Of a stretch of 64,000 nucleotides of DNA, positions 13,840-27,738 are shown piece by piece (the first letter of the stretch is position 1; each line of letters begins with the position of its first letter). Under the pieces are notes generated by a model, which saw nothing but the letters and a program-made list of their open reading frames with translations, did no database searches and was not told the DNA's origin. Origin of the DNA: Thiothrix subterranea (GTDB taxonomy: Bacteria > Pseudomonadota > Gammaproteobacteria > Thiotrichales > Thiotrichaceae); NCBI RefSeq assembly GCF_016772315.1, contig NZ_CP053482.1:682001-746000 (forward strand). The letters are read 5' to 3'. A program made the position numbers and the translations under genes.

Positions 13840-14970
13840 TTATTTGAGCAAATGTTCATAACGCTGATCCGTCAGCGTCTTCATAAACGCCACCAACGCA
13901 TCCACCTCCGCATCTTTCAAAGCAGATGCTTGAAATTCATCGGTTTGTAAGGCGAGATTACCTGCGACTTCCGGCACATCCCACGGTTTGCTAGTTTCCG
14001 GGTTGAGGGTGCGCTGCGCATTATTAAACTTGTCGTAAAACAATACAACGGTACGCAAATCGGCAAACACGCCATTGTGCATATACGGCGCAGTCACTGC
14101 GACATTGCGCAAGGTTGGCACTTTGAATTTGCCCGCCGCTGTGGGGTCGCTAATGTCGGGGTGTGCCAACAAACCTTGATCAACGAAATCCTTAGCCTTG
14201 CCATTCGCCGCCCGTACCGCGTGATTGGTCGGCACTCCCAAGTTGTGGTACTCGTAATTGCTGAAGGTTTCGCCCTCACTACCGGGAAAGGCTTTCACCT
14301 GATGGCAGCGGTTGCAATTGGTGAACTGCTGGGAAAAGAACAAGGATTCACCCAACGATTCCTGATCCGTCAGTTCGACCTCCCCTTTCAAATAGCGGTC
14401 ATATTTGGAATCAAACGGCGCGAACAGCTCGGTTTTTTCAAACTCACCCAAACTTTCCGCCATTGCCGCGTAAGCCGTTTCCGGCGTGTCGAAAACACTT
14501 GCGCCGAAAAGCTGTTTGAACGCGCTAACGTAATCCTGATTTTCCTGCAAACGCGCCACCACGCTCGCTTTGTCCGGCATCCCCATTTCCACCGGATTCA
14601 GTGGCGGCTCGCCCGCCTGCCCAGCTAAATCGTTCTCGCGCCCATCCAGAAATTGCCCACCGATATAGTTACCCGCTTTGTTCTGGTGAAAATCTGGGCT
14701 GAATTTGGCGTAAGTTGCTGTTGGTGCATTGCGATCCCCCAAGGATTTGCCGTCATCGCCCAAGGAAACCGCTTTACCCACCGCTGTGCTGCGATTATCC
14801 ACGAAACCGTGTTCAGGATTGTGGCAAGTGGCGCAAGATTGCGTGCGGTTTTTCGATAGATTCACGTCAGAAAACAGCTTTTCGCCCAAGGCGGCTTTGG
14901 TATTGAGGGGAGGATTAGCAGCAATGGCAGTTGATGCCAAGCACAATAAGCAGAAAAAAAGAAGGCGCAT
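13840..14970 (-). CDS. Di-heme cytochrome c peroxidase family protein (MauG/CcpA type)
   Basis: 376 residues with a signal peptide (cleavage near residue 18), so periplasmic. There are two c-type heme sites, Cys46-x-x-Cys49-His50 (CATCH) and Cys219-x-x-Cys222-His223 (CNRCH), each in its own cytochrome domain, plus the conserved VPTLRNVAVTAPYMHNG. These enzymes reduce hydrogen peroxide with electrons from small cytochromes. A probable Fur box upstream (15007-15025) suggests induction by iron limitation. Confidence 0.9.
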   Translation of the reverse strand: MRLLFFCLLCLASTAIAANPPLNTKAALGEKLFSDVNLSKNRTQSCATCHNPEHGFVDNRSTAVGKAVSLGDDGKSLGDRNAPTATYAKFSPDFHQNKAGNYIGGQFLDGRENDLAGQAGEPPLNPVEMGMPDKASVVARLQENQDYVSAFKQLFGASVFDTPETAYAAMAESLGEFEKTELFAPFDSKYDRYLKGEVELTDQESLGESLFFSQQFTNCNRCHQVKAFPGSEGETFSNYEYHNLGVPTNHAVRAANGKAKDFVDQGLLAHPDISDPTAAGKFKVPTLRNVAVTAPYMHNGVFADLRTVVLFYDKFNNAQRTLNPETSKPWDVPEVAGNLALQTDEFQASALKDAEVDALVAFMKTLTDQRYEHLLK

Positions 14971-15103: not shown

Positions 15104-15571
15104 TTACATCTGTGACTGTAAATAGTTCTGCAAGCCGATTTTGTCAATCAAACCCAGTTGCTTTTCCAGATAATAGGCATGATCTTGCTCGGTGTCATCC
15201 AGTTGGCTACGCAGCATTTCGCGGGTGACGTAATCTTGCTCTTCTTCGCAGATGTTCATCGCCGCCTTCAGCGCACCCACCACATGGTATTCCAGCGCAA
15301 GGTCATTCTTAAACATGCTGGGCACATCGGAACCCACATTCAGGCTGTCTTGATTGTTCAGATCCGGCACACCTTCGAGGAAGAGGATACGGCGAATAAT
15401 GGCATCGGCATGGGCACTTTCTTCCTGACGTTCATGCTCGTAATGTTCAAACAACTTGGTCAAGCCCCAGTCGTCACACATGCGCGAATGGATGAAATAT
15501 TGGTCGCGTGCTGCCAATTCACCCGCTAACAGGGTTTTCAGCACGTCGATAACGCGGTCGTTTCCTTTCAT
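15104..15571 (-). CDS. bfr: Bacterioferritin, ferroxidase-type subunit
   Basis: 155 residues, four-helix ferritin fold. Compared by eye with E. coli Bfr, all ferroxidase ligands are kept: Glu18 ([11 protein letters not shown]), Glu51 and His54 (EESAHAD), Glu94, and Glu127/His130 (TEQDH). The heme-ligating Met52 is replaced by Ser. It should oxidise Fe2+ but not bind heme by itself. It lies 12 bases downstream of a second bfr gene with the opposite defect. The start has AAGGAGA 8 bases upstream. Confidence 0.93.
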
Positions 15572-15583
15572 AATGTCGTCTCC

Positions 15584-16054
15584 TTATGCGTTCATCATGG
15601 ATTGTAAATAATTGGGCAAACCGGCATTCTGGATTGCCCATTGCTGGGATTCCAACCAGTCGATTTGCTCTTCTTCCTCTTCAAGGATTTCTTGCAGCAT
15701 GTCGCGGCTTACGTAATCCTGCGCTTGTTCACACGCCGCAATCACACTGCGCAATTCAGCCACCACTTCACCCGCTAAACGTAAATCGTTGGCGATGATT
15801 TCCGGCACATCTTCGCCAAGATACAGCTTGCCAAGGTCTTGCAGATTGGGCAGTGCTTCCAGAAACAGGATACGTTCGATCAGCTCGTCCGCCTGTTTCA
15901 TGGCGTTAATGGAACGCTTGTATTCGTGCTTGTTGAAACCTTCCAAGCCCCAGTTTTTACACATGCGGGCGTGCAGGAAGTATTGGTTGATCGCCGTCAA
16001 CTGGCTGCGTAGCGCCAGATTCAGCGAACGGTTGATGTCGGGATTTCCTTTCAT
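15584..16054 (-). CDS. bfr: Bacterioferritin, heme-binding subunit lacking ferroxidase ligands
   Basis: 156 residues from the ATG at 16054 (CAGGAGA upstream; the longer frame has no ribosome-binding site). It begins MKGNPDINRSL like E. coli Bfr and keeps the heme ligand Met52 (NAMKQAD). The ferroxidase site is gone: position 18 is Gln, 51 Ala, 54 Gln, 94 Gly and 130 Gln. It should therefore serve as heme carrier or structural subunit in a mixed 24-mer with the neighbouring subunit, as known for BfrA/BfrB pairs in Neisseria and Magnetospirillum. It is first in the operon, behind the divergent Fur-box region. Confidence 0.92.
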   Translation of the reverse strand: MKGNPDINRSLNLALRSQLTAINQYFLHARMCKNWGLEGFNKHEYKRSINAMKQADELIERILFLEALPNLQDLGKLYLGEDVPEIIANDLRLAGEVVAELRSVIAACEQAQDYVSRDMLQEILEEEEEQIDWLESQQWAIQNAGLPNYLQSMMNA

Positions 16055-16216
16055 CGCTATTATCTCCTGATTGTTTGTGTGATTTATAGTTGCGTGGAAG
16101 TCAATGCTACCGTTCAACAAGCATTGAAGCAATTACATATTTTCTTTGTGTAACAATAACTTAAGTAACAATTATCAAAATCATTCCCAATAACACCGAT
16201 TTCACTTGCCAAAATA

Positions 16217-16235
16217 AATGAGAATCAATATTATT
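16217..16235. promoter_or_regulatory. Probable Fur box in the divergent bfr / nitroreductase region
   Basis: AATGAGAATCAATATTATT, with a second AT-rich candidate near 16171 (ATTATCAAAATCATT). Both lie in the 263-base gap between the divergent bfr operon and the nitroreductase-like gene, so iron could control both sides. Confidence 0.55.
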
Positions 16236-16317
16236 ATTGACAAGTCGCTCCCCTCACGTAAGCCACCTCTCCTACTAGCCAGCGTGTTTTTTACACCCCT
16301 ATACCAGAGGATTGGTC

Positions 16318-17028
16318 ATGACCTACCTGCACTCCATTTTCAAACCCAAGGATATGGCGTTGGCACTGGCAGTGGATCGCGTCATCCGCAACCGCCGCAC
16401 ACGAAAAGTGTTAGGCCACCTGCATTCCCCTGCCGTTATTCCCCACGGCTTCACCGAAAAAGTGGAAGAAGCCGTGCGCATCGCCGGTTGGGCACCGTTC
16501 CATTTCCCCGCCAATAAAATTCACCGTCAGAATGAACTTGATTCATGCGTCCCTTGGCGTTTTTACGCGCTGGATCAAGCCAGTTGCCTGACCTTGGCAC
16601 AGTGCCTGCTGGATAACGGCGCGGGCAATGTGACCGAAGATTCCACCATTATCCGCATGTTAGCCGCTGCCGGTTCGGTGGTGTTAAGCACCTGGCTGCC
16701 CGAACCGGATCACAGCAGCAAAGCGCAACACATGAACGAAGAACACCTTGCCGGTGCTGCCGCCGCCGTCCAAAACCTGTTACTGGCAGGCGAAGCCCGC
16801 GATCTGCAAACCTATTGGTCTAGCGGTGGCGTGTTAGCCTCCAGCGAATGTTTCAAGCTGTGCGGCATCCCCACAGAACAAAAATTATTGGGCGCAATTT
16901 TCATGTTCCCGCCCCAACCAGACAGTGCCGCAGACATTCACGAAGGCAAATTGCGCAACCAACGCGGCACACCGGATAGCTGGCGCACGTGGGTGTCATT
17001 GAGCAAACCACAGGAGCAAGCTGCATGA
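16318..17028 (+). CDS. Nitroreductase-like flavoprotein
   Basis: About 236 residues from the ATG at 16318 (AGAGGA upstream). The layout fits nitroreductase-like FMN proteins: an Arg-rich N-terminal RNRRTRKV, EAVRIAGWAPFHF, and a C-terminal AAAAVQNLLLAGEARDLQTYW that lines the FMN site in relatives. The substrate is unknown. The stop overlaps the next gene's ATG as ATGA, so it forms a tight pair with the GCS2-like ligase. It stands between bacterioferritin and the heme receptor genes and probably belongs to the Fur regulon. Confidence 0.7.
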   Translation: MTYLHSIFKPKDMALALAVDRVIRNRRTRKVLGHLHSPAVIPHGFTEKVEEAVRIAGWAPFHFPANKIHRQNELDSCVPWRFYALDQASCLTLAQCLLDNGAGNVTEDSTIIRMLAAAGSVVLSTWLPEPDHSSKAQHMNEEHLAGAAAAVQNLLLAGEARDLQTYWSSGGVLASSECFKLCGIPTEQKLLGAIFMFPPQPDSAADIHEGKLRNQRGTPDSWRTWVSLSKPQEQAA

Positions 17029-18098
17029 ATCCGTTCCGTTTTGGCATTGAACACGAAGTCGCGTTTTACCGCGCTGACGGCAAATTTGCCGATTTCACCA
17101 ACACTGGTTTTGAGGATTTCCAGCAAATCGTTGACCGCCTGCCGGAACACCCCGCTGATGCCGAGCATTTGCGCAGTGGCGATGCGGGTATCCGCCGTAA
17201 ACGTTGGTATATCGAGGGTTACGAACGCTTCAACGAAGATGGCACACTGCGGACTTGCACCCCCAAAGGCATCGAGATCCGTACCACCATTCACACCAGT
17301 ATTCAAAGTGCGTTGAACGAATTGCAAGACAGTTACACCTTGTTGCTGGAGATGGCGGCGCGTTATGGCTATCGCCCTGCCCCCGTCAGTTTCAACCCAG
17401 AACAGGTAAAATTCACTCCCAACCCACCGCTGAATGCGTTTGAGCGCGAACAACAGCGCAACGAATCGCCCGAAGAACGCGATACTGCCCACATCCCCAT
17501 GCTCACTTATGGCCCTGACTTGAGCTTATCGCAACTCGGCATGAATAGTGCGGTAATGGTGGATGCTGCCAGCAAACTGACGTATTACAGCCCGTTTATT
17601 GTGCCGTTCAGCTTCAATTCGCCATTTTATGCGGGAGAAATCTGGTCGGGTTTGTCGATCCGCACATGGAAACGTACCGGTGCACGCCCCGCCGCGTTGG
17701 TGTTCCCACCCGATAGCGGGCATCTGCTGCATTCAAACCCTACCCTGACTAAAGCACCGCGTCATCCGGCAGAAGCAGGACGGATTGAGTTCAAAGCGTT
17801 TGATTCCAGCAGTGATTTTACCTTGTATGGCGCACTGTTTGCCTTGCTGAAAGGTCTGGTGCTGGATGATAGCTTACCGGGGCGAGCCATTGTACCGAAT
17901 GCGCACCAACATCAAATGGCGGCGATGCAGGCATTTGATAACCCCTTGATTTTCAAGTTTGCATGGCAAGCACTCCATGCCGCTGATCGGGCATTGGGCA
18001 ATGACCCTGACCATCAGTTGTTGGAACCGCTGTTTGATATGTTGCAACGCAAGCGCACGCCCGCACATGAGTTGCTGGAGATGAGGTTGTGCGCATAA
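17025..18098 (+). CDS. GCS2-like carboxylate-amine ligase
   Basis: 357 residues, start at 17025 overlapping the nitroreductase-like stop. It begins FRFGIEHEVAF, the Glu-rich metal/ATP motif of the glutamate-cysteine ligase family 2. The later part YYSPFIVPFSFNSPFYAGE with SIRTWKRTGARPA is the usual core. Members join a carboxylate and an amine with ATP (gamma-glutamyl compounds in YbdK and EgtA). What this enzyme couples is unknown; its place in a heme/iron locus is notable. Confidence 0.75.
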   Translation: MNPFRFGIEHEVAFYRADGKFADFTNTGFEDFQQIVDRLPEHPADAEHLRSGDAGIRRKRWYIEGYERFNEDGTLRTCTPKGIEIRTTIHTSIQSALNELQDSYTLLLEMAARYGYRPAPVSFNPEQVKFTPNPPLNAFEREQQRNESPEERDTAHIPMLTYGPDLSLSQLGMNSAVMVDAASKLTYYSPFIVPFSFNSPFYAGEIWSGLSIRTWKRTGARPAALVFPPDSGHLLHSNPTLTKAPRHPAEAGRIEFKAFDSSSDFTLYGALFALLKGLVLDDSLPGRAIVPNAHQHQMAAMQAFDNPLIFKFAWQALHAADRALGNDPDHQLLEPLFDMLQRKRTPAHELLEMRLCA

Positions 18099-18156
18099 TA
18101 TTAATAAGAATTAATTTCATCTAAATGCACTCTAACACTTGCCAACACAAATGCTA

Positions 18157-18175
18157 ACAATTATCATTAAATATC
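18157..18175. promoter_or_regulatory. Probable Fur box upstream of the heme receptor region
   Basis: AACAATTATCATTAAATAT, about 90 bases before the small coiled-coil gene and 410 before the TonB receptor gene. It contains the ATTATCATT half of the Fur consensus. Confidence 0.5.
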
Positions 18176-18263
18176 GTTACTACCTCCTATAATCTTGCGC
18201 AAGCCAGCTTCTGAGCCAAGTCAGCCAGCGTACTTTTTTCAAACATGATGGAAAAAAGACGTT

Positions 18264-18506
18264 ATGAATCAGCCTGAATATTGCAAGCAACAACACAGCA
18301 AAAACCCCCAACTCAACCGCTTGCAACAAGAACGTGAGCAACTACAGCAAGACCTTGCCGAACTGCAAGATGACCTGAAAATAGTGCAAAATCTCATCCG
18401 GCATAAACAGCAAAAACTCCGGGCGCTGAATCAGGATATTGTCACCAAAACCCGCCACGTCAGACCGGTATTGGTTTGTTTAAACGGTGGGCGCACCACC
18501 GTGTAA
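18264..18506 (+). CDS. Small coiled-coil protein ahead of heme receptor
   Basis: 80 residues, hydrophilic. Residues 15-62 form a regular heptad coiled coil rich in Leu, Gln and Glu (LNRLQQEREQLQQDLAELQD), followed by a basic tail. No signal peptide and no recognised family. The ribosome-binding site is weak (AAAAAAGACG). It lies between a probable Fur box and the heme receptor gene, so it may be co-regulated. Whether it is expressed is uncertain. Confidence 0.5.
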   Translation: MNQPEYCKQQHSKNPQLNRLQQEREQLQQDLAELQDDLKIVQNLIRHKQQKLRALNQDIVTKTRHVRPVLVCLNGGRTTV

Positions 18507-18587
18507 ACGCCCTCCCCCTTTACACTTAGCCATCCACGCTTGCGTTGGTAGCCAAATGACCTTATTGAAGTTTTGAGGACAATTTGT

Positions 18588-26709: not shown

Positions 26710-27042
26710 TCAGGCACAATCACGCTGTGCTTGCACAGCCGTTGGTTTTGACCTGAAAGGAATAATGTCGGCGCTCGACGGACGCGGAAAAAAGCTGTGG
26801 TAAATGCTTTCCAATTGCTGGCTGACTTCATGCGAACAGCGAACCAATAACAAACATTTTACCAATTCGTGCTGCACCTGCTGACTAGGGTTGCATAGCT
26901 CATTCAGACAGAAATCGCCTTGTTCAAGGCATTGCTGCAATTCGTGTTTGTCAAATCTGGCGACTTGTTCACCCGTCTGGCGATTGTGCAAGCTGATAAA
27001 CGGGTCAACCCGATCCAGCCATGCGTTTACATAAAACGTCAT
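26710..27042 (-). CDS. Conserved-looking small protein, divergent from bfd
   Basis: 110 residues from the ATG at 27042, which has GAGGT five to nine bases upstream. Mixed alpha/beta appearance (FYVNAWLDRVDPFISLHN; then QQCLEQGDFCLNELCNP) with four cysteines in the middle; no signal peptide. I do not recognise the family. It is transcribed away from bfd/hemP, and both share an intergenic region with two Fur-like boxes, so an iron-related role is plausible but unproven. Confidence 0.55.
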   Translation of the reverse strand: MTFYVNAWLDRVDPFISLHNRQTGEQVARFDKHELQQCLEQGDFCLNELCNPSQQVQHELVKCLLLVRCSHEVSQQLESIYHSFFPRPSSADIIPFRSKPTAVQAQRDCA

Positions 27043-27168
27043 CACACACCTCACTATTCCTTGAAAATAAGAAATAATCTGGCTGGTGCGGAGTTACAAC
27101 GTCATACACTGGCTTGACTACTTTTTGTTGCCGTTTTGAGGAGAGGGCAAAAACCTGTAAGATGCAAC

Positions 27169-27187: not shown

Positions 27188-27257
27188 TACCGAGTCAAGC
27201 ATTTTTTGAGAAATTTTCTCATTTCAAAAAATAACTGAGAACCACTTGTATTTGTAG

Positions 27258-27276
27258 TTGATCATGATTATCATCA
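27258..27276. promoter_or_regulatory. Probable Fur box, bfd divergent region (2)
   Basis: TTGATCATGATTATCATCA has an inverted-repeat core ATGATTATCAT and sits 38 bases before bfd, where a repressor would cover the promoter. Confidence 0.65.
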
Positions 27277-27313
27277 CCGGACGTTTAAGAATGATTACTG
27301 TTTAGGTGATGCC

Positions 27314-27526
27314 ATGTACGTTTGTATTTGCCACTCTGTGACCGACAAAGCGATCAAGAAAGCCGTTAAACAAGGCCACGAGACGCTGGAAGCCATTCAA
27401 CAAGAGCTAAAAGTCGGCACGTGTTGCGGGCGTTGCAAAAGTCATGCCTGTGAAGTCATCGAAGAAACCCTCAACCCTGATACCCTCCACTTTAACCTTA
27501 ACCTGATGCAAGGTGCATTCGCATGA
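27314..27526 (+). CDS. bfd: Bacterioferritin-associated ferredoxin Bfd
   Basis: 70 residues. The BFD-like [2Fe-2S] motif is present: Cys-x-Cys near the start (CICHSVTD) and Cys-x-x-Cys in TCCGRCKSHA. Bfd gives electrons to the heme of bacterioferritin so that stored iron is released when iron is scarce. This fits the bfr pair at 15-16 kb and the Fur boxes upstream. Its stop overlaps the hemP start. Confidence 0.93.
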   Translation: MYVCICHSVTDKAIKKAVKQGHETLEAIQQELKVGTCCGRCKSHACEVIEETLNPDTLHFNLNLMQGAFA

Positions 27527-27738
27527 TGACTGGAGCTTTGAGAATGACGGATGTAGAACCACACCGTATCAATCTGGAAGAATTGATGCGCGGCTGCAAA
27601 AAAATCATTCTTCAGCACGGCAAGCGACCTTATTGTTTGACCATTACCCGCCGGGGCAATTTGATCCTCACTTCGGCAGATGATGACGCAGACAAGCAAC
27701 CTTTGCTTGACCGTTCCGCTGAAGAGTCCGACCGATAA
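27523..27738 (+). CDS. hemP: Hemin uptake protein HemP
   Basis: 71 residues from the ATG at 27523 (AAGGTG upstream, ATGA overlap with bfd); an ATG at 27544 is possible. The family core is clear: LEELMRGCKKIILQHGKRPY then CLTITRRGNLILT. HemP proteins are small Fur-regulated factors; in Burkholderia HemP helps activate heme receptor genes. The acidic C-terminal extension is longer than usual. Confidence 0.85.
   Translation: MMTGALRMTDVEPHRINLEELMRGCKKIILQHGKRPYCLTITRRGNLILTSADDDADKQPLLDRSAEESDR

Follow-up and report, generated by a model that had tools for sequence, protein, structure and literature searches.

In a 64,000-nucleotide stretch of the Thiothrix subterranea genome (hereafter the window) we describe a two-gene operon encoding a nitroreductase-family oxidoreductase (NR) and a divergent carboxylate-amine ligase of the glutamine-synthetase (GS) fold (LIG), probably controlled by Fur and switched on when iron is scarce. 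We put at roughly one half the probability that it is a stand-alone, Fur-repressed iron-stress operon, in which the ligase and the flavin reductase would work on one small molecule, and not a part of heme uptake. A literature search found no report of an NR-LIG pair and no described set matching it, in agreement with a preliminary description of this DNA that had placed the pair outside known heme-uptake sets. The elements around it are the following:

13840-14970, minus strand: MauG/MbnH-like di-heme peroxidase, with a 64% identical gene in a Cocleimonas ligase locus
15104-15571, minus strand: bacterioferritin-like gene 2 (PF00210), kept in genomes G278, G277 and G275
15584-16063, minus strand: bacterioferritin-like gene 1 (PF00210), divergent from the pair and beside it in G278, G277 and G275
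16170-16188, plus strand: another Fur-box-like site, AATTATCAAAATCATTCCC, in the interval from the divergent bacterioferritins to the pair, conserved in G277 and G275
16206-16238, plus strand: promoter-like TTGCCA-N17-TATTAT overlapped by Fur-box-like AAATGAGAATCAATATTATTATT, also found before the pair in G286 and G277
16254-16287, plus strand: 5'-leader element before the pair, a short inverted repeat enclosing AAGCCA...AGCCA
16318-17028, plus strand: NR, FMN-type nitroreductase-family oxidoreductase of 236 aa (PF00881 above cut-off)
17025-18098, plus strand: LIG, divergent GS-fold carboxylate-amine ligase of 357 aa (model pLDDT 91, Foldseek, motifs)
18139-18171, plus strand: distinct Fur-like/promoter-like site in front of the downstream heme operon, from site scoring
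18195-18233, plus strand: second leader copy, before a small ORF and the heme receptor, from a pattern match

Both reading frames of the pair are intact and overlap by four bases, as had been described: an ATGA in the 17025-17028 region (junction CAGGAGCAAGCTGCATGA), accompanied by a good ribosome site. Four Thiothrix genomes share this overlap, and so does Leucothrix, whose proteins are about 55% identical; in Cocleimonas SW_1_6 a gap takes its place. On this evidence NR and LIG are translationally coupled. NR scores 30.7 bits against PF00881 (nitroreductase; gathering cut-off 23.5), and its nearest solved relatives, YdjA-type nitroreductases, are weak matches (E about 0.005); a structure model built on a four-row alignment reached a pLDDT of 33. 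The best NCBIfam match is the C-terminal domain of FbiB, at 18-20 bits against equivalog cut-offs of 249-304; we rejected an F420-type pathway, as these cut-offs are missed by more than 230 bits.

At E<=0.01 Pfam returns nothing for LIG (P0002). The GCS2 likeness first noticed is its sole weak match (PF04107, E 0.031), at 14.1 bits against a cut-off of 21. A relative, L026, scored 22.9 bits against TIGR02050 (cut-off 176.4), and LIG and all scored relatives lie under every curated GCS2, YbdK and EgtA cut-off, which makes LIG a divergent family within a known superfamily. An AlphaFold (AF2) model from an alignment of 41 relatives reached pLDDT 91 and pTM 0.91. Its best Foldseek matches in the PDB were plant glutamate-cysteine ligase (2gwc, TM about 0.65) and YbdK (1r8g, TM about 0.62), with bifunctional glutathione synthetase and glutamine synthetases at lower ranks; the match to a YbdK/GCS2-type profile was 96.6% over 141 columns.

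The catalytic features that define the carboxylate-amine/ammonia ligase superfamily were taken from PMC2588565 (GhExE in strand 1, two acidic strand residues, [HD]x[NH] in strand 4, Ex[RK]x2D in strand 6, and two active-site arginines) and scored column by column across 87 LIG relatives. GhExE is present as G7-I8-E9-H10-E11, with E9 and E11 in 86/86 scorable relatives. E64 and E84, on predicted strands, are invariant except in one frameshifted copy, to which, strand 4 aside, the gaps and mismatches in these features are confined. ExKxxD is formed by E255, K257 and D260, which, together with R213, R217 and R221, are invariant in all 87. In the strand-4 motif D165 is equally invariant, and the third position is Asn in 74 sequences and Ser in 13, including the window ligase and all those of Thiotrichaceae; because Ser replaces Asn here, the activity of the Thiotrichaceae ligases could be altered. 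Judged from the predicted fold and the invariant motifs, the assignment of LIG as a GS-fold carboxylate-amine ligase is well supported. So is, with PF00881 for NR, the earlier proposal of a flavin oxidoreductase next to an amide-forming ligase. The family carries motifs of its own, WYIEGxER and RTG.RP, and its conservation is high, with a mean column identity of 65% over 41 members; as far as we could find, it has neither a curated model nor a described function.

The nearest folds of LIG, plant glutamate-cysteine ligase and YbdK, would fit an additional gamma-glutamylcysteine synthetase, raising glutathione levels during iron or oxidative stress, and a title cited in PMC2588565 credits YbdK with activity of this type. 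We consider this improbable: the LIG family falls far short of the GCS2, EgtA and YbdK cut-offs, and the genome encodes a canonical GshA elsewhere (528 bits), so that LIG is not needed for glutathione. The presence of GshA also led us to discard a replacement of glutathione synthesis by LIG.

Adjacent pairs were found in seven genomes only: five of Thiothrix, Leucothrix arctica and Cocleimonas SW_1_6. Bacterioferritin genes stand beside the pair in four of the Thiothrix genomes. Downstream of the Leucothrix pair come genes for a TonB receptor, for a PKHD-type hydroxylase and for a FutA-like, putatively iron-binding protein. In G286 the Fur-like site is kept and no clear iron-uptake gene adjoins the pair, the nearest recognisable, putatively metal-related gene being a downstream P-type ATPase. 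Across the pairs the flanking genes vary, with a leaning towards iron. In G275 the pair is frameshifted; its status as a pseudogene is doubtful, with an assembly error as likely, because the neighbouring MauG-like gene is frameshifted too. Each gene is also found alone. Solo reductases in G298 and G304 have neither a Fur-like site nor iron neighbours, and a solo ligase in Cocleimonas SW_2_14 has ferritin, imelysin, DHOR and MauG-like genes around it, the last 64% identical to that of the window. The specific NR subfamily was detected in Thiotrichaceae only, a narrower distribution than that of LIG: among 43 LIG-carrying genomes the strong matches are those of Leucothrix and Cocleimonas, and the remaining matches in 398 Pseudomonadota genomes are weak and partial. 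Separately, a 114-aa protein without Pfam match is encoded after the heme operon of the window (26710-27054, minus strand); a relative with 39% identity is encoded in Cocleimonas, two genes 5' of the ligase there (L023:11065-11364).

In keeping with the Fur-like boxes reported earlier for this locus, the pair is preceded by Fur-box-like sites at 16170 and 16214-16238; a further one, at 18147-18171, separates it from the heme genes. Across the window 17 sites score at least 13/19, against about 4 expected (adjacent registers overlap). Promoter-like TTGCCA-N17-TAT(T/C)AT occurs at 16206-16234 and 18139-18167, each time overlapping a Fur-like region, with a number of hits that is not above chance. 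Because each unit has its own Fur-like/promoter-like site, the pair looks like a transcription unit of its own rather than the start of the heme operon. Elsewhere in the window, the strongest Fur-box-like site (15/19 at 27260) lies in 27257-27735, 5' of bfd and hemP.

A Fur-box-like site is found shortly 5' of all seven pairs, in four upstream contexts. We count four because G286 lacks the bacterioferritins and yet keeps AAATGAGAATATATATCATTA. The Leucothrix and Cocleimonas pairs have other Fur-like sites in front; the four sites in bacterioferritin contexts are related and not independent. The best 19-mers before the pairs match 13-15 of 19 positions. For six of the pairs no more than 4% of shuffles attained the score; for the remaining one the figure was 10%. 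No such site precedes the two solo reductases or the solo ligase of Cocleimonas SW_2_14. Taken with the ATGA coupling, the sites before 7/7 pairs point to a dedicated operon, probably under Fur control.

These data also bear on a looser arrangement, in which two independent iron-stress enzymes happen to share an operon, one of them a reductase of flavin or quinone, or perhaps of ferric iron, the other a gamma-glutamyl ligase involved in making some general stress compound. The solo reductases in G298 and G304 and the solo ligases in Cocleimonas SW_2_14 and in cyanobacteria are what one would expect of it. The preservation of translational coupling across genera is not, nor is the lack of a Fur-like site at the solo reductases, and we regard this arrangement as possible, with doubts.

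The pair and the heme operon have a further element in common, a leader with the pattern (T)RCGY-RAGCCA-N(9-16)-AGCCA-GCGT that lies 3' of both Fur-like promoters. In its exact form it occurs at no other intergenic place in the genome, and before the pair it is kept in 5/5 Thiothrix species examined. A stem of five pairs could form in it, with covariation and folding not above those of shuffles, and an Rfam search gave no match. A stretch before the heme receptor (18528-18554, AGCCATCCACGCTTGCGTTGGTAGCCA) looks like a permuted version, with the hairpin inside and AGCCA outside.

LIG reaches well beyond the pair. In a scan of genome contigs, the best 80 of 169 LIG relatives are mostly cyanobacterial, with a few from Chloroflexota and Desulfobacterota, one from an actinobacterium, and those of Thiotrichaceae; among 398 sampled Pseudomonadota genomes, a full-length match was found in the window's own genome only. 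The topology of the LIG tree leaves the attachment of the Thiothrix and Leucothrix/Cocleimonas clades undecided. The cyanobacterial relatives come without NR, and in many of these genomes LIG has no heme or iron neighbours. Occurrence in many genomes away from such genes, which the preliminary description had named as telling against its proposal, hence holds for LIG alone and not for the coupled pair. The ligases of cyanobacteria and other phyla showed no enrichment of Fur-like sites (4/79 at p<=0.05), and we dropped iron control of the cyanobacterial ligases on these grounds.

In 14 cyanobacterial loci (L063, L076, L047, L103 and ten others) LIG adjoins, in four arrangements, a sucrase/ferredoxin-like gene (PF06999), of which the genomes concerned carry one to four each. 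This adjacency suggests a functional link in cyanobacteria, and the PF06999 protein may be another redox partner of LIG. As a general requirement of LIG such a Suc_Fer-like partner was rejected, being absent from Thiotrichaceae and the other non-cyanobacterial LIG genomes tested. Nine cyanobacterial loci (L036, L040, L041, L043, L048 and others) have a gene resembling LCM-type methyltransferases (PF04072), in some cases shortened, immediately 5' of LIG and in its orientation; the distance is mostly 25-46 bases. A 33% identical ligase gene is also found on plasmid pSsyis1 of Serratia symbiotica (L017:15001-16047), within a type IV pilus (conjugation) cluster, a context that gave no functional clue for LIG.

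The preliminary description had set the pair between bacterioferritins and a heme receptor, and inside a heme/iron locus. The order is confirmed by ORFs and Pfam, except that the pair and the receptor are separated by a small ORF (18264-18506). Beyond this ORF follow genes for the TonB heme receptor, HemS, HutZ, a PBP, FecCD, an ABC protein and a HemS-type protein, and Bfd and HemP are encoded on the same side. The small ORF itself, a coiled-coil protein of 80 aa that heads the heme operon, is 92-96% identical in two relatives without an intact adjacent heme operon. Membership in a heme system is not supported: among the pair genomes, heme genes stand beside the pair in the window genome only, apart from a remnant in its nearest relative, G278 (a truncated heme receptor and the small ORF). 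The hmu/hutZ operon thus adjoins the pair in 1/7 pair genomes, and in G275 the small ORF is about 15 kb away from the pair. From these neighbourhoods the heme link appears specific to the lineage of the window.

A role in processing a heme-degradation product, such as amidation or reduction of a bilin-like product of HutZ, was for this reason set aside as the main reading. It has some appeal in the window genome, where the pair adjoins hmuR-hemS-hutZ-hmuTUV and both units have a Fur-like site and the genome-unique intergenic leader, and it could draw on the frequency of the LIG family in cyanobacteria, which are rich in bilins. We nevertheless hold it to be unlikely, since no other examined pair stands beside the heme operon and LIG is also present in Chloroflexota, Desulfobacterota and an actinobacterium. 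Moreover, most Thiothrix carry a different HutZ (about 46% identical), located elsewhere and not following the pair, in genomes with or without it.

For the stand-alone iron-stress operon we propose the following course. At low iron Fur would release the promoter and both proteins would be made. LIG would use ATP to phosphorylate a carboxylate, for which the gamma-carboxyl of glutamate or a similar acid is the likeliest candidate, and would join the activated group to an amine. NR, a flavin-dependent reductase or dehydrogenase co-produced through translational coupling, would act on the same small molecule or on its precursor, and the product, perhaps a ligand, a thiol or a redox-protective compound, would be useful under iron limitation. 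We infer a common substrate from the coupling and co-regulation of the genes; the solo copies of each weaken this argument, and because LIG occurs without NR in cyanobacteria the shared pathway would not be obligatory. More tentatively, the operon may belong to an undescribed iron-starvation pathway, in which a new family of GS-fold ligases, present in cyanobacteria as well, would build an amide-linked small molecule such as an iron ligand, thiol or redox cofactor, the redox step falling to a dedicated flavin reductase in Thiotrichaceae and perhaps to a thioredoxin-fold ferredoxin encoded next to the ligase in some cyanobacteria. For a highly conserved family that is frequent among cyanobacteria and represented in a few further phyla, and for which we found no function, the Thiothrix operon offers a regulatory clue (iron and Fur) and a candidate redox partner.

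Several known systems resemble parts of this one. In Caulobacter, CC_0061 and CC_2653 are nitroreductase-family genes listed in the iron-response tables of PMC3751524; like NR they are of the nitroreductase family, and no ligase partner was seen for them there. From the YdjA-type nitroreductases NR differs by an insertion of about 10 residues after the Asn and ahead of the PW motif. FbiB, of coenzyme F420 biosynthesis, likewise joins a glutamyl-type ligase to a nitroreductase-family protein, as a gamma-glutamyl ligase fused to a nitroreductase-type domain. Its ligase domain is of the CofE type, whereas NR and LIG are separate genes and LIG has the glutamine-synthetase fold. The closest parallels to LIG are YbdK/GCS2 (PF04107, TIGR02050) and plant glutamate-cysteine ligase, with which it shares the GS fold, GhExE, ExKxxD and the active-site arginines; it is set apart from YbdK/GCS2 by sub-cut-off scores, by WYIEGxER and RTG.RP, and by a mostly cyanobacterial distribution.
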